From a virus: a DNA stretch of 64,000 nucleotides. The translations under genes and the position numbers were made by a program. This document shows, piece after piece, positions 55,920 to 64,000 of the stretch. A model generated the notes under the pieces. It was not told the origin of the DNA, ran no database searches, and saw nothing but the letters and a program-made list of their open reading frames with translations. Numbering within the stretch: position 1 is the stretch's first letter; each line of letters opens with the position of its first letter. The stretch lies in IMG/VR virus record IMGVR_UViG_3300009370_001679, positions 1-64,000 of that record. One strand, given 5' to 3'.

Positions 55920-56942
55920 TTATTTCCTGTAATTTTGTATAACGTTAAAAAATTGTTTATTCCAACTCTCAACAAATCGGTCTAGATTGAACTCATTTAT
56001 AATTGTGGCTTTTGCGTTGTCTCCCAATCTTCTGGCTTCGTCAGGATTGTTAAGGAGATACTCGCAATGACTCCTAAGCTCATCTTTTGTGTTGCCGAGA
56101 AGACCGTTTTCTCCGTCCTGTATAATTTCGGGTATCATACAGTTGTTGGTGCTAACTATAGCGCACCCGCAAGCCATAGCCTCCATTAATACTGTTGGTA
56201 CGGGAGAGTGAATAGATGTGTTCAGAAAGATAGAAGACTTCTTATACTCTTCTCTTAAGACCTCAAGACTGGAAGCGGGTTCAGATAATCCGGGACTGCT
56301 GCCAAGAACTTTTATGGGAAGTTGATCGGGAGAGTTAAATCCAACTGTTTGTTGCCATAGGTTCCAGCCACAGCACCAGTCCCTGTTTGGCCAATCGTTG
56401 ACTACAGATATACAGACATTTTCGCGGTCATATGAATCGCCACCGCTCCAGAAATCAGTATCTATTCCATGTTCAATAAAAGAAGTAGTGTTGGATAAAT
56501 TTTTCCCCCATTCCTCCATATTGTATCGAGATATAAAGCTGTCATGATCGACCTCAATAGCATTAAAGCTAGCAATCTGTGAACTAACATCAAACCGAAT
56601 ATCTGGTAAAACATGTGTGTGTCGCAAGATAGGTATATTGAAAAGCTGTTGAATTTGTTTGGCGGTCATAATTCTTTCGCAGCTTGTGTGGCAAAGAATT
56701 AAATCAAAGTTAATATGCCAAGGCACGATATCAATCTCTTGATAGTTTGTGGGAATTAAGCCATAGTCTGTATTCCATGTTTTTCCATGATTCATAGAAT
56801 AGAAATTATGTCCTGTTTTGCATAGACCCTGTTCGTATCTTTCGTGCGTACAAAATGTCAATATATTAAGCGCATCTCCTTCGCTTAAGGTAGACCTTCT
56901 CATCATAGACCTTACAGACTGTTGGCTCGCGGTACTACTCAT
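55920..56942 (-). CDS. GT4-like glycosyltransferase
   Basis: This 340-residue protein is a GT-B enzyme: a donor domain with IEHGIDTDFWSG, IKVLGSSPGLSEPASS, and the nucleotide-binding VLMEAMACGCAIVSTNNCMI, in which Glu contacts the ribose as in GT4 members, and a final helix (NLDRFVESWNKQFFN). The N-terminal acceptor domain starts with ALNILTFCTHERYEQGLCKT. The start shown overlaps the upstream gene by eight bases. Sugar unknown. Confidence 0.8.
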   Translation of the reverse strand: MSSTASQQSVRSMMRRSTLSEGDALNILTFCTHERYEQGLCKTGHNFYSMNHGKTWNTDYGLIPTNYQEIDIVPWHINFDLILCHTSCERIMTAKQIQQLFNIPILRHTHVLPDIRFDVSSQIASFNAIEVDHDSFISRYNMEEWGKNLSNTTSFIEHGIDTDFWSGGDSYDRENVCISVVNDWPNRDWCCGWNLWQQTVGFNSPDQLPIKVLGSSPGLSEPASSLEVLREEYKKSSIFLNTSIHSPVPTVLMEAMACGCAIVSTNNCMIPEIIQDGENGLLGNTKDELRSHCEYLLNNPDEARRLGDNAKATIINEFNLDRFVESWNKQFFNVIQNYRK

Positions 56943-58041
56943 ATAACAACTCCTTTAGTTTTTTGCCAATACACTTTATATCGTATTCTCTAGCCTTAGC
57001 CATAGAATCATCTTTTTTGGCATTGTATTCTTTTGGGTTATTCTTGTAAGTCTCATAAGCCACCCTCATTATAGAGCATAGCGACTCCAAGTCTGGCTCC
57101 ATCCATCTGGTAAGCGATGTATACACACTGTCCATCGAGTCTGTTGCCATGTAGCATGGGGCTGGAGACGATGGAACTTTCCACCCCACACAGAAATCAT
57201 CCATACCAGTATTAGCTGTATGTATAACAGGTATGCCCATAGCCATAGACTCTAGTGCCGGTATGCACCAAGCCTCTCCAAAACTAGGCATAACAAAACA
57301 GTCGCACTTATCCATCAGTGAGTGTAGGTGCCTACTTTCCAGATGCCCTGTTATAGCAATTTCTTTTCTGTAGTTCTTTCTTATTTTAAGCGCTCGTCTT
57401 ACATTGCCTGAAAGGGTGTCGAAATATTTAAGCGTCTCATCGTGACTATATCCCGGCTTACTCAGCTTCAAGAATAGGTTAACAGGTTCTGACGGGTGAA
57501 ACTCTGTATGAAAAGCCCGTAACAAAGTTTCAATATTTTTTCTCTTGACCATCTCCCCGACAAAGCAGAAGTTAAAACACCCACTAAACTCCCCTACGTT
57601 TGCGCAGTCTTCTATGTTTTGATAATCTTCCATAGGTAGACATAGCGGTGCTAACTTAACGGGGATTGTTACTCCGCTTTTCTGGGAGGCTGTTATCATC
57701 TGATTGTTAGGAACCCACGCTTCGTCAAGCAAGTTTATATGTTTGTGCCACATAGTCTCTGAAAAAGTCGCTGTTTCAGTATAGAAGATACCTATGTTTT
57801 TGAATCTTGAGTTGTAAGAGTATAGCGGCGGAAGTGTGTGTTGAATACAAACATCTACGCCCTGTTCGCTCTGCCCCTCTAACTCCGCAATTCTTTGGTT
57901 GCTAGTATTGTGCGAGTCATTAAAGGTGATAGCTCTAGGCACAACATTTACTCCAGCAGAATCTAAAGCCAATATATTATTGAAGCAAGCGTTTCCCCAC
58001 CCCGTTCTGTCGTTATAGTTTCCTATATAGAGAACTTTCAT
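56935..58041 (-). CDS. GT4-family glycosyltransferase
   Basis: This 368-residue protein has a full GT-B architecture: KVLYIGNYNDRTGWGNACFN at the start, CFNFCFVGEMVKRKNIETLL (the family G-x-x-x-x-K-N) and the donor-binding PALESMAMGIPVIHTANTG. The length is typical for a family member. It overlaps the next gene upstream by four bases. A mannosyl- or glucosyl-type transferase is likely, but the sugar is not known. Confidence 0.9.
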   Translation of the reverse strand: MKVLYIGNYNDRTGWGNACFNNILALDSAGVNVVPRAITFNDSHNTSNQRIAELEGQSEQGVDVCIQHTLPPLYSYNSRFKNIGIFYTETATFSETMWHKHINLLDEAWVPNNQMITASQKSGVTIPVKLAPLCLPMEDYQNIEDCANVGEFSGCFNFCFVGEMVKRKNIETLLRAFHTEFHPSEPVNLFLKLSKPGYSHDETLKYFDTLSGNVRRALKIRKNYRKEIAITGHLESRHLHSLMDKCDCFVMPSFGEAWCIPALESMAMGIPVIHTANTGMDDFCVGWKVPSSPAPCYMATDSMDSVYTSLTRWMEPDLESLCSIMRVAYETYKNNPKEYNAKKDDSMAKAREYDIKCIGKKLKELLYE

Positions 58042-59690
58042 CGTTGCCCTCCTTGGATTTTATTAGCCCTAATTTTTTCCCACTCGTTGTGCATCTCTCT
58101 CATTTTGGCCATATGGGTATATGCCAAGTTGACATCAAACTTACCCCAATTTCTTATGTTGTTGTTGAGGTGTGATTCATTGAAATAGAAATCAACATTT
58201 GTACTACTAGCGGTACACTTATACGTAATATCCCTCAGTGTTCTTTTCCACATATGGTTGCCAATCCAGTCTGGTCTTCGTAGAACATGACTAAAGAGGA
58301 AATCTACCTGCTCTTTGATGCTAAGGTTTGGCGGGATTTCAGTAGCGGATGGTAATATTCTTGGAGCGGAAAGCCATGTCTCGGCGTGATTTCTAACTGG
58401 CGTCTTCTCAAAATAATCTGCCCATTTGCTCGCAGTATCATCCCAGCTATATCGAGAAAGCGTGCTCTGCCTCATGTTATAGCCCGCCTGTTTACGTTTT
58501 TCATCGCTGGTATTGTAGAGGTCAGTAATATGCTGTAGCGCTACTTTGTTATCTGGGATAGCCCTATTACACCCCGTCTCACATTCCATTTGAAGGTAGC
58601 TTACCGGAACCTTGAAAGCCCCAATATTGTCTGCGACAGACTGCATAGCGGAATAGTCAACGGTAATGACGGGAACTCCCGACTGAGACGCTTCTAGTTG
58701 GGGCATGCCAAACCCTTCACTATTTGCATATTGTATATATACATCAAACAGGCTGTATATTTGCGCAAGTTCATCTCTTTCTATTTTATTGTTTATGCCA
58801 ACAAGCTCTCTTGTAAAGTTTGCGCACTGATAGCAATGATTAATAACATCATTAAAAAATGAGGCATTAATATGACCGCACTTCTTGCACCTGTATGTAA
58901 ATAAAACCCTATTGGTTAACCCATACTCTTGAAGAAGCTGAGGTATTTCCCAACCAATGTCAGGATAAGATGTGTGGCAATAAAGATATGCATTGGGAGC
59001 ATCGTTAGAGTCCAGAAACTCCCTGAATGTTTTAAACAAATCTGGAAACAGTTTTCTTCGCTGGTTCCTCATTACCGTACCAAGAATAAACGAATCTTCA
59101 GCTAGCCCAAAATTTAATTTATGCGAGATCTTGTCATGAACAATATCAAACTCCTGACTAGCACAGGGAGATGCTATATCTATAAAGTTCAAATCTTGGC
59201 ATTGCCCTAAGAGAACATCTTTGCCGAACTCGGAGTACGCAAACACGGCGTCTGCACTAGCGAAGGTGTCCATCCACTGGTTGTTTTGGGGGGCGGCGTC
59301 TACTGTCGGCATTATGCACCAATTAAAGAAATCTCGAAACGGAGTTCTTTGCTGGAATTCAAACATCCACCAGTCTCGTATGTCTACAACAAAGTCGGGC
59401 ATAAAGTCTAGCAAGACATGATTAAATGTATACTCACCAAATTCATACGATGGCTGTGACTTGTACTCATCCCACTCTGGACTGCCTTTTACGGGCTGGT
59501 TTGGAAATATAGTCCAATTACAGTTCTTGGCCTCTTTATTTGCCCTTGCTTGGTCTACATAACAGGCAAGCTCGGCAACCTCAAATCTAGGGTCTACACT
59601 CAGGCGAGAAAGAACCTCTTTTGTATATACAGAATACCCTGTAGGCAAGAAGTGTCCCTCTGAGCAGAAAAGTATTTTTTTACGTCTCAT
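58038..59690 (-). CDS. GT4-like glycosyltransferase with inserted zinc ribbon
   Basis: This 550-residue protein begins with KILFCSEGHFLPTGYSVYTK and has LGTVMRNQRRKLFPDLFKTF for the donor-domain start and GFGMPQLEASQSGVPVITVD for nucleotide-sugar binding, a GT4 pattern. Between these, Cys268/Cys271 (CKKCGH) and Cys286/Cys289 (CYQC) form a four-cysteine zinc ribbon inserted inside the donor domain. A further 130 residues at the C-terminus are not explained. It is the first gene of the sugar cluster after the sigma factor, which it overlaps by 11 bases. Confidence 0.8.
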   Translation of the reverse strand: MRRKKILFCSEGHFLPTGYSVYTKEVLSRLSVDPRFEVAELACYVDQARANKEAKNCNWTIFPNQPVKGSPEWDEYKSQPSYEFGEYTFNHVLLDFMPDFVVDIRDWWMFEFQQRTPFRDFFNWCIMPTVDAAPQNNQWMDTFASADAVFAYSEFGKDVLLGQCQDLNFIDIASPCASQEFDIVHDKISHKLNFGLAEDSFILGTVMRNQRRKLFPDLFKTFREFLDSNDAPNAYLYCHTSYPDIGWEIPQLLQEYGLTNRVLFTYRCKKCGHINASFFNDVINHCYQCANFTRELVGINNKIERDELAQIYSLFDVYIQYANSEGFGMPQLEASQSGVPVITVDYSAMQSVADNIGAFKVPVSYLQMECETGCNRAIPDNKVALQHITDLYNTSDEKRKQAGYNMRQSTLSRYSWDDTASKWADYFEKTPVRNHAETWLSAPRILPSATEIPPNLSIKEQVDFLFSHVLRRPDWIGNHMWKRTLRDITYKCTASSTNVDFYFNESHLNNNIRNWGKFDVNLAYTHMAKMREMHNEWEKIRANKIQGGQR

Positions 59691-60159
59691 GTCTTCTTAT
59701 TTTTCCTATTGCTGAGTATAGTAAACTATAGTATTCATTCTTTGAGAGGAAAAGCTCTCCGCAAATATCTTTTCTGGTATATCCTCTCGATTTAAAATCC
59801 AGTATTTTTCTTTCCATCGGTAACAGCTTATTCTTGTACGCGGCTAACAAACTCTGGAACTCCAGCATGTGGTGATCCTCTGTGTATTCAGACGGCGTGG
59901 CTATTTCTAGTTTTGATAGGCTCTGCCAGTCGCTCTCTTTCTTTAGAAATTTTATTAGGTGGTTTCTAACAGAGGAAAACATATAATTCCTGAGTGGGCC
60001 AATTTCAGCGTCATAATTTTTAATTGCCTGTAGGGAGCCCAAAAAAGCAACCTGAAGCAAGTCCTCAAACTCATAAGATTCAGACTGATCATTAAACTTT
60101 GTAACAAGATATATAATTACATCTAGGTTGTCGTCGATGCTCGCTTTAGTTCTGATCAT
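59680..60159 (-). CDS. Phage-encoded RNA polymerase sigma factor
   Basis: This 159-residue protein has a sigma region 2 at about 31-74 (FEDLLQVAFLGSLQAIKNYD and LRNYMFSSVRNHLIKFLKK) and a region 4 at about 112-155 (LLPMERKILDFKSRGYTRKD, then KNEYYSLLYSAIGKIRR). The two are joined by a short linker without region 3, as in ECF or SigH-type and T4 gp55-type factors. It would redirect host RNA polymerase. The repeated TTTTGTGTATA motif before late virion genes is the obvious candidate target. It overlaps SSB by 14 bases and is made with the replication genes, before late expression, as expected of a late regulator. Confidence 0.85.
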   Translation of the reverse strand: MIRTKASIDDNLDVIIYLVTKFNDQSESYEFEDLLQVAFLGSLQAIKNYDAEIGPLRNYMFSSVRNHLIKFLKKESDWQSLSKLEIATPSEYTEDHHMLEFQSLLAAYKNKLLPMERKILDFKSRGYTRKDICGELFLSKNEYYSLLYSAIGKIRRHET

Positions 60160-60487
60160 TCGGTCTTTCTTTTTCGTTGAAAATCTTAAAGCTCTGTACT
60201 CTGAAATTTATTTTTTGTTTGTTTTCACCTTGTGAGTTAGTCCATTTTTGCTGCCTAGCAGAGGCGTGGATAGCGATAATCTGGCCCTTTTTACAGATTT
60301 TATGTATGGTTGTTCCTCCACTATCCCAAGCCTCGAACTCAAAAAAATCCACTCGCTTCTTTTTATTACCCTCTTTATCTCTGCGGTATTCCTCAACGGC
60401 AAGAGAAAAGGTTACAAGCTGGGTATTCCCAACATCCCTTATTTCAGGGTCGGCAGTAAACCTTCCCACAAAGTTACAGTTATTCAT
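60146..60487 (-). CDS. ssb: Single-stranded DNA-binding protein
   Basis: This 113-residue OB-fold SSB starts NNCNFVGRFTADPEIRDVGN, the usual opening (a strand, then G-R-x-x-x-D-P-E). It has the strand TQLVTFSLAVEEYRRDKEG and the core VDFFEFEAWDSGGTTIHKIC and IIAIHASARQQKW. It is shorter than bacterial SSB because it has only the OB domain. It ends ERPNDQN and lacks the acidic tip (DDDIPF) that recruits partners in bacteria. It lies between the polymerase and the sigma factor. Confidence 0.95.
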   Translation of the reverse strand: MNNCNFVGRFTADPEIRDVGNTQLVTFSLAVEEYRRDKEGNKKKRVDFFEFEAWDSGGTTIHKICKKGQIIAIHASARQQKWTNSQGENKQKINFRVQSFKIFNEKERPNDQN

Positions 60488-60533
60488 TTACAATCTCCAA
60501 TAATGTATGTATATAGAAGATTATAGCCTATTA
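60488..60533 (-). promoter_or_regulatory. Possible promoter for ssb and sigma (weak)
   Basis: This is the largest gap of the leftward arm (46 bp). On the minus strand it contains TATAAT followed by an AT-rich stretch and TTGGAGATTG, the ssb ribosome site. No convincing -35 element is seen in the preceding coding DNA, so a promoter is only a possibility. Confidence 0.25.
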
Positions 60534-62087
60534 TTACGCTTGAGACACTTTGTTAATGACCAAACTTGTATCTTTTTTGCTGGATACTTGACCAAAGGCA
60601 ACAATTGTATTGCCTTCATATAGAATTTCCTTGAATTTGCCATATGTCTCAGGAAATATAACGGCAGAGTCAAGGGTTGCTGTAGAGTCTTCCACCGACA
60701 AGAAAGCCATAATCTGGCCCGGATTTTTACCGTTCTTTGTGGCATATTCTCGCAAGGAGTTTATATGGATTGCTACGTTTACCTTGCCCGTTCTACCGTT
60801 AACTATCTCTTTACATGTACAATTAACCGCCGCACTTTGTATGGCATCAGTTTTGGAGAAGGTTAGCGCCACGCCCATATATTTGTTTTCTGCATCTGCA
60901 ATCCAGTTAGGGTGGTCAGTAAGGTCAAACGGCGGAGACTCGATAATATTTCGGACATCAAACACTTTGATTAGTCTGTTAGAATTTATCTTTAGGTTAT
61001 TTATCATGTTATCTATAGCGGCAATTATAGAATCGTCTGGATTGTAGTTATTAGACAGCCATTCTCTTTCTCTAATGGACAAGTCTCTATAGCTCTTGTA
61101 TTCATAAAGAAGGGCATTTCTATGTTTAGTATTATTTTTACCATTAAAAGCGCCAACAGTAATGAGTGCCTCAATGCATGTCTTGTTTACTTTTAGACCT
61201 AAATTAAATAGAGTGTCTAACCAAGTGAACTCAGCAAAAGTTTTGCCTAGCTTTTCTTCTAGCTCTGGAACCAAATCCAACATCTTCTTGGTTTCAGCCG
61301 TACCAACACCTTTAATGTTTGTAATGCCAAAGTATATATTGCTTTCTGCCGCAGTAAAGGATGGATAGAAGTGCCCTAGTCTGGGAGGTAGGGTCTCTAT
61401 GTCATATAGCTTTGCGTCAGACACAAGCTCTTTGATTTCCACCTGTTGGTCGGGCTTTCTTTCTGAGTGATTGAGGTAAGACTCAAAGAACCTCATCTTT
61501 CTGTGAACCTTACAGTATGCACTTCTGTAGGCGTTAACAGCATAAGAAACAGCATGAGATTTATTAAACGCATAGCGATTAGATTTTTCAATCCAGCCAA
61601 AAATTTCTTCCGCTATCTCTTTATTAAGACCCTCAGTGCTTGTCACTCCAGACAGGAAAGATTTTTTAACCTTTGCCATCAAGCCCGCTTTCTTCTTACC
61701 GATAGCCTTACGGAGGTTGTCCGCTTCTTTTAGATCGAATCCAGCAAGCTGCTGGGCAATTTTCATGGACTGCTCTTGGTATACAAGAACCCCATAGGTT
61801 TCACTAAGGATTGGCTCAAGGCTCGGATGAAGATATTTGACTTCATCAATACCAGCTTTCCTATCTACGTAGTGCTGAGTCATGGACTTGCCCTCAGTAA
61901 AAGCCTTTAGACAGCCGGGCCTAATCAATGAAATAAGAGCCGACAGCTCTTCTATGCTACGAGGCTTAACTCGCCTCGCCCAAGACCTACCAAGTTGAGA
62001 CTCTAGCTGGAATACCCCTTTGGTTCTTCCGTCGCAAATCAAGTCCCACACTTTGTCATCATCAAAATCGTCAATATTAAATATCAT
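60534..62087 (-). CDS. dnaE: DNA polymerase III alpha subunit, C-terminal half (split)
   Basis: This 517-residue protein starts at an ATG that overlaps the sulfotransferase stop (ATGA), with GGGAAGAAG upstream. It aligns by eye with the second half of DnaE: GVFQLES (24-30), LISLIRPG, YGVLVYQEQSMKIAQQLAGF (98-117), RKAIGKKK (126-133), FNKSHAVSYA (174-183), a helix-hairpin-helix IKGVG (258-262), and an OB-like end. It thus supplies fingers, DNA-binding and OB parts. It lacks the PHP and palm domains, which lie on a separate gene at the right edge of the window. The tau-binding C-terminal region of bacterial DnaE is not evident. Confidence 0.9.
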   Translation of the reverse strand: MIFNIDDFDDDKVWDLICDGRTKGVFQLESQLGRSWARRVKPRSIEELSALISLIRPGCLKAFTEGKSMTQHYVDRKAGIDEVKYLHPSLEPILSETYGVLVYQEQSMKIAQQLAGFDLKEADNLRKAIGKKKAGLMAKVKKSFLSGVTSTEGLNKEIAEEIFGWIEKSNRYAFNKSHAVSYAVNAYRSAYCKVHRKMRFFESYLNHSERKPDQQVEIKELVSDAKLYDIETLPPRLGHFYPSFTAAESNIYFGITNIKGVGTAETKKMLDLVPELEEKLGKTFAEFTWLDTLFNLGLKVNKTCIEALITVGAFNGKNNTKHRNALLYEYKSYRDLSIREREWLSNNYNPDDSIIAAIDNMINNLKINSNRLIKVFDVRNIIESPPFDLTDHPNWIADAENKYMGVALTFSKTDAIQSAAVNCTCKEIVNGRTGKVNVAIHINSLREYATKNGKNPGQIMAFLSVEDSTATLDSAVIFPETYGKFKEILYEGNTIVAFGQVSSKKDTSLVINKVSQA

Positions 62088-62761
62088 TCAACTTCTTCCC
62101 ACCTTGCTGTAAATTCCTTAAATTCCTTTTGTAGCCCTTTTATCGTCTGATTATCAAATATATTTTGAGCGGTTTTAGGTTCTGGATTTTGAATATGGGC
62201 GCCATGAATCCCAGACTTGTCATCAATACAGCTAAAATCATTACCGATTTTTGCTTGAATACCCCGATGAGAACTTATGGAAAAATCTCTTTCTATTAAA
62301 TCTCTACGCTCTTTATCTATGGTGCTATTGAAACGATTCTCTAGCTTTTTAAAAATATAGTCAAAGTTATTCCAAAAGGATTCATACTTAAGAATAACAA
62401 CATCTTTACCATCATCGCGAATAGAGTCAACAAACTCCCAAAAACTACGATGATGGCCTAAACTCTCATGGCAAACAGGCATATGTTCTTCTTGCTTCTT
62501 TTTTGAAATTCTCACAAGAGAAGCCGCTGTATCTATAGGGTTTCTTATAGTGCATATAGCAGGTAACTCTTTGGTGGGAAAATGACTAACCCCCTGAACC
62601 CTACATCCAAATACCCAAATATTATAGTCGATTGGATGGAAGTAGTGAACTTCAGAAAAAACATTTCTTAATATTCTATTTACTAACGTTGACCCGCTAC
62701 GAGAGATTGACCACTGTAAAACCGTTTTCTCTATGATAGGATTAAACGTAGAATTCGCCAT
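62084..62761 (-). CDS. PAPS-dependent sulfotransferase
   Basis: I choose the ATG at 62761 over an in-frame TTG at 62779, giving 225 residues. Residues 20-27 are SRSGSTLV, the 5'-phosphosulfate loop that binds PAPS. Residues 73-81 are RNPIDTAAS, the 3'-phosphate-binding strand and helix of carbohydrate and protein sulfotransferases. It would place sulfate on a sugar hydroxyl or tyrosine, most likely in the phage glycan cluster. It is unusual in lying between the two halves of the split polymerase, and the start overlaps the exonuclease end by 20 bases. Confidence 0.8.
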   Translation of the reverse strand: MANSTFNPIIEKTVLQWSISRSGSTLVNRILRNVFSEVHYFHPIDYNIWVFGCRVQGVSHFPTKELPAICTIRNPIDTAASLVRISKKKQEEHMPVCHESLGHHRSFWEFVDSIRDDGKDVVILKYESFWNNFDYIFKKLENRFNSTIDKERRDLIERDFSISSHRGIQAKIGNDFSCIDDKSGIHGAHIQNPEPKTAQNIFDNQTIKGLQKEFKEFTARWEEVE

Positions 62762-63431
62762 TTGCAAATGCTTTCTCAAACTTAGTCTTCTGTGAAATGT
62801 TTCTTTGAAACTTCAGGAACTTAATGAGGATATTTGCCGTATCCTTTACGTCTTGAAGGGCGTCGTGAGCGTTCTCTTTGCTCTCTTCTGGGAATCCCAT
62901 ATACTCTCGCAGGAAGTCCATGCTGATACTCTTAAAGTCTCGATTGTTTTCTGTCCAAGAGAATACCATATCCATCAAGTCGAGCTTGAAGATCGGATTG
63001 AAGATAGACTGCCGACCTCTAGTATCGGTAGTGCCGTACATCTCGCACATTCTCTGAGCAATAGGTAAGTCAAAACCAATAATATTATATCCAGCGGCTA
63101 TAGGTGCAGTATAAGACGAGCCTCTGAAGTTGAACTTATTACAGAAGTCCTCAAACTTTTTCCATACTGTTTTTGGCAATGGGGCTTTAGCAAGAGCTTT
63201 TCTGTTCTTGCCAGTAATCTCTAACGCTTCCTCCTCTAGTGGGTCAACTCCGGCTTCAATAGCTTTCTTATCGTCAATGATAGGTCTAATCTCACTATTA
63301 AAAATTCCGCCCGGCTGAATTGTTAGCTTACGCCCGTGTAGAGCGATAGCCGCAATCTGTGTTGGTTGTGTTGTGAGCGGGTTTCTAGAGCCTGTCTCAA
63401 AGTCAAACACAATTATATCTCTAAAATTCAT
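62742..63431 (-). CDS. DEDDh 3'-5' exonuclease (DnaQ-like)
   Basis: This 229-residue protein has Exo I FDFETG (Asp10, Glu12), Exo II YNIIGFDLPI (Asp121) and Exo III HDALQDVKDTA (His189, Asp194), the DEDDh set. These are the catalytic residues of DnaQ/ExoX-type nucleases. With the polymerase halves on both sides, it most likely proofreads for the phage DnaE, a function that bacterial DnaE also takes from a separate epsilon subunit. It overlaps a small protein by four bases. Confidence 0.9.
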   Translation of the reverse strand: MNFRDIIVFDFETGSRNPLTTQPTQIAAIALHGRKLTIQPGGIFNSEIRPIIDDKKAIEAGVDPLEEEALEITGKNRKALAKAPLPKTVWKKFEDFCNKFNFRGSSYTAPIAAGYNIIGFDLPIAQRMCEMYGTTDTRGRQSIFNPIFKLDLMDMVFSWTENNRDFKSISMDFLREYMGFPEESKENAHDALQDVKDTANILIKFLKFQRNISQKTKFEKAFANGEFYV

Positions 63432-63655
63432 TTAAGTGATCCTTTTAATTCAACAAACTTGTTAACAGCTTCATCTATGTCTTTAAAGATTTCGCTATAC
63501 TTACAACGAGGGTTATCTGAGTGTACCTGATAAGCACCAGTAACATACCCTTTATATTGTGGTAGAAAATGTCTCAAATCGCACAAGCTTATGCTTTTAG
63601 ATTCAATGGCGCAGCCAGAAAAAATGACCGACTTGTAATCCCGCTTAATACTCAT
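63428..63655 (-). CDS. Small hypothetical protein between polymerase halves
   Basis: This 75-residue protein has AAGGAG upstream (inside the end of the N-terminal DnaE fragment) and ends in the next gene by a four-base overlap. It has alternating strand and helix patterning (YKSVIFSGCAIESKSISLCD, then DIDEAVNKFVELKG) with no known motif. Its place between the polymerase fragment and the exonuclease suggests a replication accessory role, but nothing in the sequence shows one. Confidence 0.45.
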   Translation of the reverse strand: MSIKRDYKSVIFSGCAIESKSISLCDLRHFLPQYKGYVTGAYQVHSDNPRCKYSEIFKDIDEAVNKFVELKGSLK

Positions 63656-63657
63656 TC

Positions 63658-64000
63658 TTACTCCTTAATTTCCATGATTTTACTAAGTAGGTCAATACCC
63701 AGTATATCAAATTTAACATGTCCTTGATCTTCTAAATCGCCCATTTCAAAACCGGCGATGAGATTTTTACTTTTATCTTTAACCATAGGACAAACTTTAT
63801 TTAGTTTATTTGCTGATATAATAACTCCAGCAGCGTGTTTCCCTTGAGATTTTATCGTACCTTCAATGTCAATTGCTTGCTGAAAAATTGCTGCGAACGG
63901 GCCAACTAGATCATTATCACTATTTAGCTTACACCACCTATCTAGAACTTCTGGCTGATAAGCAAGTGTCCATCGAATTAGTGAGCCTTCACCGCTTTCC
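63658..64000 (-). CDS. dnaE: DNA polymerase III alpha subunit, N-terminal fragment (end of gene, partial)
   Basis: On the minus strand the frame entering at the right edge reads 113 residues to a TAA at 63658-63660. The translation contains KSQGKHAAGVIIS and FEMGDLEDQGHVKFDILGID, the palm segments of DnaE that lead to the third catalytic Asp (D555 region in E. coli, KFDFLGL). The gene then stops after LLSKIMEIKE, before the fingers. The matching second half starts at 62087. The rest of PHP and palm, with the first two catalytic Asp residues, would lie outside the window. The stop is a clean TAA and the next gene follows after two bases. Confidence 0.85.
   Translation of the reverse strand, partial: ESGEGSLIRWTLAYQPEVLDRWCKLNSDNDLVGPFAAIFQQAIDIEGTIKSQGKHAAGVIISANKLNKVCPMVKDKSKNLIAGFEMGDLEDQGHVKFDILGIDLLSKIMEIKE

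Follow-up and report, generated by a model that had tools for sequence, protein, structure and literature searches.

A viral dnaE gene divided between palm and fingers, with sm and exonuclease genes between its halves

How does a virus come to carry a replicative DNA polymerase gene that stops just past the active site and resumes several genes further on? The question arises at the right end of a 64,000-base stretch (hereafter the window; G000:1-64000), which is positions 1-64000 of a 78,605-base IMG/VR virus record (IMGVR_UViG_3300009370_001679). Here dnaE is divided after the palm into two minus-strand genes, dnaE-N and dnaE-C. A first-pass annotation, made from the letters of the window, had proposed that they encode a functional two-chain polymerase with an exonuclease made between its halves. 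To our knowledge, replicative polymerases nearly always consist of one catalytic chain. From the analysis of this locus and its relatives, we argue that a replicative C-family DnaE is probably made here as two non-covalently assembled chains with a separate exonuclease as proofreader, a reading to which we give a probability of roughly 0.85. The genes concerned are as follows.

63658..64000, continuing beyond the window to record position 65235, minus strand: 3' part of dnaE-N (PHP, palm and thumb; PF02811, E 6.5e-24; PF07733, E 2.6e-70)
63428..63655, minus strand: sm, a small conserved protein of 75 amino acids, starting 2 bp past the dnaE-N stop
62742..63431, minus strand: DEDDh 3'-5' exonuclease, epsilon/DnaQ-like, 229 amino acids (PF00929, E 8.9e-12; phrog_192, E 3.7e-21)
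60534..62087, minus strand: dnaE-C (fingers, HhH and OB; 517 amino acids; PF17657, E 2.8e-47; PF14579, E 7.6e-07)

Anatomy of the two halves

At the window's right edge dnaE-N shows its C-terminal end, KFDILGIDLLSKIMEIKE followed by a stop codon at 63658. Read past the edge, the full gene occupies record positions 63658-65235 (L002:5053-6630) and encodes 525 amino acids. The first-pass annotation had looked to this region for an intact PHP domain and the first two catalytic aspartates (Asp). All three catalytic Asp are present (PDIDLDV and KFD, the latter within KFDILG), the motif GPGRGSAAG is there too, and the protein has the Pol beta-like palm of the C family (DxD ... KFD; PF07733). A PHP domain is found as well (PF02811), but in the window's subclade it no longer has its metal ligands; these are retained in L160, L136, L079, L037 and others, and their loss is independent of the cut.

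DnaE-C opens with MIFNIDDFDDDKVWDLICDGRTKGVFQLES, its chain beginning 23 residues ahead of GVFQLES, and carries the fingers (PF17657), HhH (PF14579) and, at its end, an OB fold identified by modelling and Foldseek. An AlphaFold2 model of this chain alone has a predicted local distance difference test score (pLDDT) of 90.4 and a predicted template modelling score of 0.82, and structurally it most resembles DnaE chains of bacteria (4iqj, E 8e-22; 7pu7, template modelling score 0.68 on the query).

The two proteins align to complementary parts of known polymerases: DnaE-N and DnaE-C cover residues 235-563 and 591-899 of E. coli alpha, 377-628 and 650-946 of Taq alpha, and 245-610 and 627-1055 of phrog_405, respectively. 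The cut falls at what we take, by the known E. coli structure, to be the palm/fingers domain boundary. The N chain stops 15 residues beyond the third catalytic Asp (family median 18 residues), which agrees with the first-pass placement of the break just after that residue. In relatives with fused palm and fingers the linker is an ordinary 43-48 residues, so little is missing at the cut. Aligned end to end, the halves are one ordinary DnaE with almost nothing lost at the palm/fingers boundary, again as first read. A single polypeptide, as expected of a DnaE-type Pol III alpha, is not what is found; in the window, as in about 150 distinct relatives, the enzyme is spread over two genes.

In the arrangement that we favor, DnaE-N would supply PHP, palm, thumb and all three catalytic Asp, and DnaE-C the fingers, HhH and OB. 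Both chains would be translated from a single compact operon and then associate non-covalently, the DEDDh exonuclease would act as a separate proofreading subunit, and the ~75-residue sm may be a further small subunit or an assembly factor.

Conservation and the nature of the cut

When viral contigs were scanned with the C-half as query, a first set of 80 relatives emerged (42-95% identical). Further scans extended this to about 150 distinct N sequences whose fingers are encoded separately; with L148 or L136 as seed, a scan returned nothing beyond the seed itself. Palm and fingers are separate genes in all 80 of the first relatives, in the order dnaE-N, sm, exonuclease, dnaE-C on one strand, and 54 of them have only sm and the exonuclease between the halves. 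No sm is detectable with ~29 of the about 150 distinct N sequences, and one subgroup lacks it. The first-pass annotation had itself named a frameshift at 63658 or an assembly mistake as grounds for doubt, and the record is derived from a metagenome. However, the same stop and start region recurs in 80/80 first relatives, which come from many separate assemblies and have complete genes in the gap, and the cut is seen in about 150 distinct N sequences. We therefore reject sequencing, frameshift or assembly error, or a misjoined contig, the probability of which is negligible. As judged from these sequences, the split is a lasting, inherited arrangement. It is carried by a large family of bacterial viruses, uncultured and mostly of marine origin. 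The identical palm/fingers cut also occurs in contigs assigned to metagenome-assembled genomes of Chitinophagia, Lokiarchaeota, SAR202 and Flavobacteriales (L232-L236); these contigs are probably viral contigs within cellular bins.

Both halves are under strong purifying selection. The ratio of nonsynonymous to synonymous substitution rates (dN/dS), calculated against the nearest relative, is 0.047 (N), 0.051 (C), 0.005 (exonuclease) and 0.27 (sm). PDxDxD is present in 228/229 N-type open reading frames and GxGRGS in 227/229, while LRKAxGKK and FQL[ED] are present in 205/209 fingers frames; the exceptions are mainly unsplit outgroups, plus L212 for GxGRGS. The window's record holds one palm copy and one fingers copy, and each of 16 records of 67-154 kb likewise has exactly one of each. 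No PolA, PolB, beta clamp or second intact polymerase was found in these 16 records, which may be incomplete, so that the absence of another polymerase is not absolute. These data bear on the idea that dnaE is a decaying pseudogene, the phage being replicated by the host polymerase and the fragments being relics or serving other roles. The loss of the PHP metal ligands in the window's subclade would fit such decay, but ligand loss has precedent where the exonuclease is separate, being known in polymerases such as E. coli alpha. Moreover, the catalytic motifs of palm and fingers are intact, dN/dS is about 0.05 in both halves, the operon is conserved together with a gene for SSB, and the same record carries RecA, DnaB and primase genes. 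Decay is thus very improbable, and together with the absence of another recognizable polymerase these features support a working two-chain enzyme.

Inspection of the N end and the C start, where the first-pass annotation had already seen no intein, found no IntN or IntC sequences at the palm/fingers cut, and an N chain that stops 15 residues past the third Asp leaves no room for one. A search of 59500-64000 against Rfam gave no match at the junction, and hence no known intron there. An intein at the cut is rejected on length as well as sequence, and inteins elsewhere in the dnaE genes of relatives serve as positive controls: they can be recognized in this family, and none stands at the palm/fingers cut. 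Split inteins interrupt the fingers at FN(K/R)/SHS, a site which we take to be no more than a few residues away from that of the cyanobacterial dnaE intein, in L160:7198-11884, L241 (a 158.5-kb contig), L257:10479-14112, L269:11515-14340, L279:3530-6443 and L302:10698-13554, with a free-standing, NUMOD3/DUF559-like endonuclease between the intein halves. L160 and L241 (FNR/SHS) have no palm/fingers cut; L257, L269, L279 and L302 have both interruptions and so carry dnaE in three pieces. A contiguous intein of ~250 residues with an HNH-like endonuclease region lies at RPG/C in the fingers of L084:8001-10394 and L261:10331-12679. The split inteins and free-standing endonucleases of L160, L257, L269, L279 and L302 lend some weight to the proposal that the halves are rejoined by a trans-splicing split intein, or that introns are spliced in RNA. 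Against it, the N chain ends too near the third Asp for an intein, the C start has none, no Rfam match was found, and the halves are always separated by the exonuclease gene, in most cases together with a second complete gene; rejoining is very improbable.

Origin of the arrangement and comparison with known split polymerases

Besides the about 150 split forms, the search for homologues, which the first-pass annotation had seen as the way to date the event, brought up two pairs of relatives with fused palm and fingers. In L148:6558-12111 and L159:8001-13758, dnaE is cut elsewhere, between fingers/HhH and OB, and the order is fused palm-fingers (854-860 amino acids), sm, other genes, exonuclease, other genes and a separate OB gene of ~170 amino acids; the L159 layout recurs in L310-L314 with an identical protein. 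In L160 and L241, sm and the exonuclease lie directly upstream of a dnaE with fused palm-fingers. We built a tree from 889 columns covering palm and fingers, with uncut phage DnaE as the root, the careful version omitting L158 (long branch) and L157 (fragmentary). In the best tree L148/L159 form the first branch (100/100), L160 the next, and the palm-cut sequences are one clade requiring one state change, for which a single ancient palm/fingers cut would be the parsimonious reading.

The sm-exonuclease pair stands before N, between N and fingers, or between fingers and OB, and because its position is permuted in this way, one tandem duplication of sm-exonuclease-dnaE with different reciprocal losses would best explain the layouts. 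The ancestor would have had sm and the exonuclease adjoining an uncut dnaE, and duplication followed by reciprocal partial loss would have left them between complementary halves; this is probably how the arrangement arose. A competing account, which concerns the origin only and is compatible with a two-chain enzyme, is that a homing endonuclease invaded and cut dnaE and was then lost, sm and the exonuclease being captured later. The mechanism is known from T4-like phages, where it has been proposed for gp43 or nrdA, and Endonuclease VII-like, HNH_3 and T5orf172 genes do occur at operon junctions in some relatives. On the other side, 54/80 relatives have no insert, L160/L241 already have sm-exonuclease beside an uncut dnaE, though upstream of it, and one invasion site is insufficient for L148/L159, where a second cut, before OB, again has sm and the exonuclease between the pieces. 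We hold homing invasion to be a possible origin, to be entertained tentatively. A stronger version of the two-chain enzyme, in which the replicase core is permanently two-chain, sm and the exonuclease are obligatory bridges of palm and fingers, and gene order was selected for co-translational assembly, seems rather unlikely.

Several observations weigh against the two-chain polymerase and the history proposed for it. All relatives are metagenomic, and among the best matches listed from the phage isolate collection there is no isolate with the split arrangement; isolate phages gave no near DNA match, and their best-listed DnaE matches are ~25-34% identical. The DnaE-C chain stops after OB, and no QxxLF-type clamp-binding motif was seen by eye in the C-half alignment. 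Support for the palm-cut clade is weak (69/60), the position of L160 is unsettled in a quick tree, and no tandem-duplicate intermediate was found among the relatives.

Genes for divided polymerases have precedents. The cyanobacterial Ssp/Npu DnaE is cut within the fingers and its halves are ligated by a split intein; the window's DnaE is likewise encoded by two genes, but its cut lies between palm and fingers and is intein-free. Genes of the interrupted kind have reportedly been described as "fractured genes" by Dassa in 2009. MIJ3 has a split PolB with a split intein and HNH (PMC6892783). It too is a split phage polymerase gene, and L160, L257, L269, L279 and L302 have a similar split intein with a free endonuclease, whereas the palm/fingers cut of the window's family has no intein. 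The closest functional parallel is the split gp43 (gp43A/gp43B), a PolB of the Aeromonas T4-like phages 25 and 44RR (Petrov et al. 2010, reviewed in PMC2988022). The two proteins of phage 25 co-purify and polymerise, and an endonuclease gene lies at the split (PMC2988022), which by analogy supports assembly of a two-chain enzyme here. In both cases the genes specify a phage replicative polymerase as two intein-free chains; in contrast to gp43, the window's enzyme is of family C, the gap holds conserved sm and exonuclease genes, and the divided form characterizes a clade that is both large and old.

In group 2.2 jumbo phages, a minimal Pol III alpha is split into N- and C-terminal proteins (Iyer et al. 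2021, PMC7824862). This C-family catalytic module lacks other Pol III domains, is encoded by distant genes alongside PolB, and is predicted to reconstitute an enzyme (PMC7824862). The window's family shares the division into N- and C-terminal proteins and differs in having PHP, HhH and OB, in one operon, with no PolB or PolA found. Bacillus phage Jayan (PQ299153; L157:3980-7387) also has DnaE in two open reading frames with a small frame between, but there the cut, possibly due to an intron or insertion, is inside the N-half, in the single isolate seen, with no exonuclease between. Among bacterial Pol III alpha genes, a survey lists only intein-split or frameshift-fragmented ones, some of them likely errors (PMC3919608). 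Split phage polymerases are already known, and a partial search of the literature found no report of the conserved N - sm - exonuclease - C operon, which is well supported as a sequence feature and would function as proposed above. Across deep divergence, the sole recognizable polymerase of a large and diverse family of phages has stayed cut between palm and fingers. Together with the uncut and differently cut lineages, this family offers a natural series for how essential enzymes split, one that bears on the recruitment of proofreading subunits and on whether processivity or fidelity changes when a chain is broken at a domain boundary. It also provides biochemists and engineers with a naturally two-piece Pol III, and in virome annotation a half-length "DnaE" gene should not be taken for a broken one.

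Genes between and around the halves

The exonuclease has the DEDDh signature (DxE, a mid-sequence Asp and HxxxxD of RNase_T) as FDFETG, GYNIIGFD and HDALQD, and phrog_192 is annotated as "DNA polymerase exonuclease subunit"; it is likely the proofreading subunit. Its gene overlaps sm by 4 bp (ATGA); the ATGA overlaps, together with the 2-bp gap, suggest that translation is coupled in the operon. The modelled fold of sm is helix-strand-strand-helix-strand-strand-helix (mean pLDDT 89.6); neither PDB nor BFVD, a viral structure library, yielded a significant match. The remaining features are these.

62084..62779, minus strand: sulfotransferase-like gene (PF00685 below cutoff, E 0.0082)
62741..62746, minus strand: TTTAAT, left copy of a 6-bp repeat beside the sulfotransferase insertion (sequence)
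62076..62081, minus strand: TTTAAT, right copy of the same repeat (sequence)
60146..60487, minus strand: SSB gene, conserved downstream flank (PF00436, E 2e-17)

The first-pass annotation had counted three genes between the halves. Only two of them are part of the conserved operon, namely sm and the exonuclease; the sulfotransferase is confined to this record and is absent from the 80 first relatives. Its likely true start, the ATG at 62761, is the dnaE-C start codon in relatives, and its leader MANSTFN is their dnaE-C N-terminus. This leader and the TTTAAT flanks indicate that the gene, a recent insertion, went in just within the dnaE-C start; as a component of the system it was rejected, being confined to this record with TTTAAT repeats on both sides. 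In some relatives, Endonuclease VII-like, HNH_3, T5orf172 or sugar-metabolism genes lie at one or more (at least one) of the three operon junctions, and on this gene content the operon region is an insertion hotspot. Endonuclease VII-like genes occur at the exonuclease/dnaE-C junction in L040:9631-10011, L036, L041, L042, L060, L071 and L075, and most open with the dnaE-C leader MKRxLQMxxxTF/TY.

Flanks are held in common across the layouts, with PD-(D/E)XK-type genes upstream and SSB downstream; SSB-like genes likewise lie downstream in L148, L159 and L160. Beyond the window, the record encodes a full DUF1501 protein (L002:18729-19943, record 77334-78548; PF07394, E 2e-101), a domain presumably typical of Planctomycetota, and its presence in a virus record is a possible hint of a host from that phylum. 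Three adjoining glycosyltransferase-like genes occupy window positions 55920-59690, downstream of the SSB and sigma-70-like genes, and similar genes are found in L148, L159 and L160.

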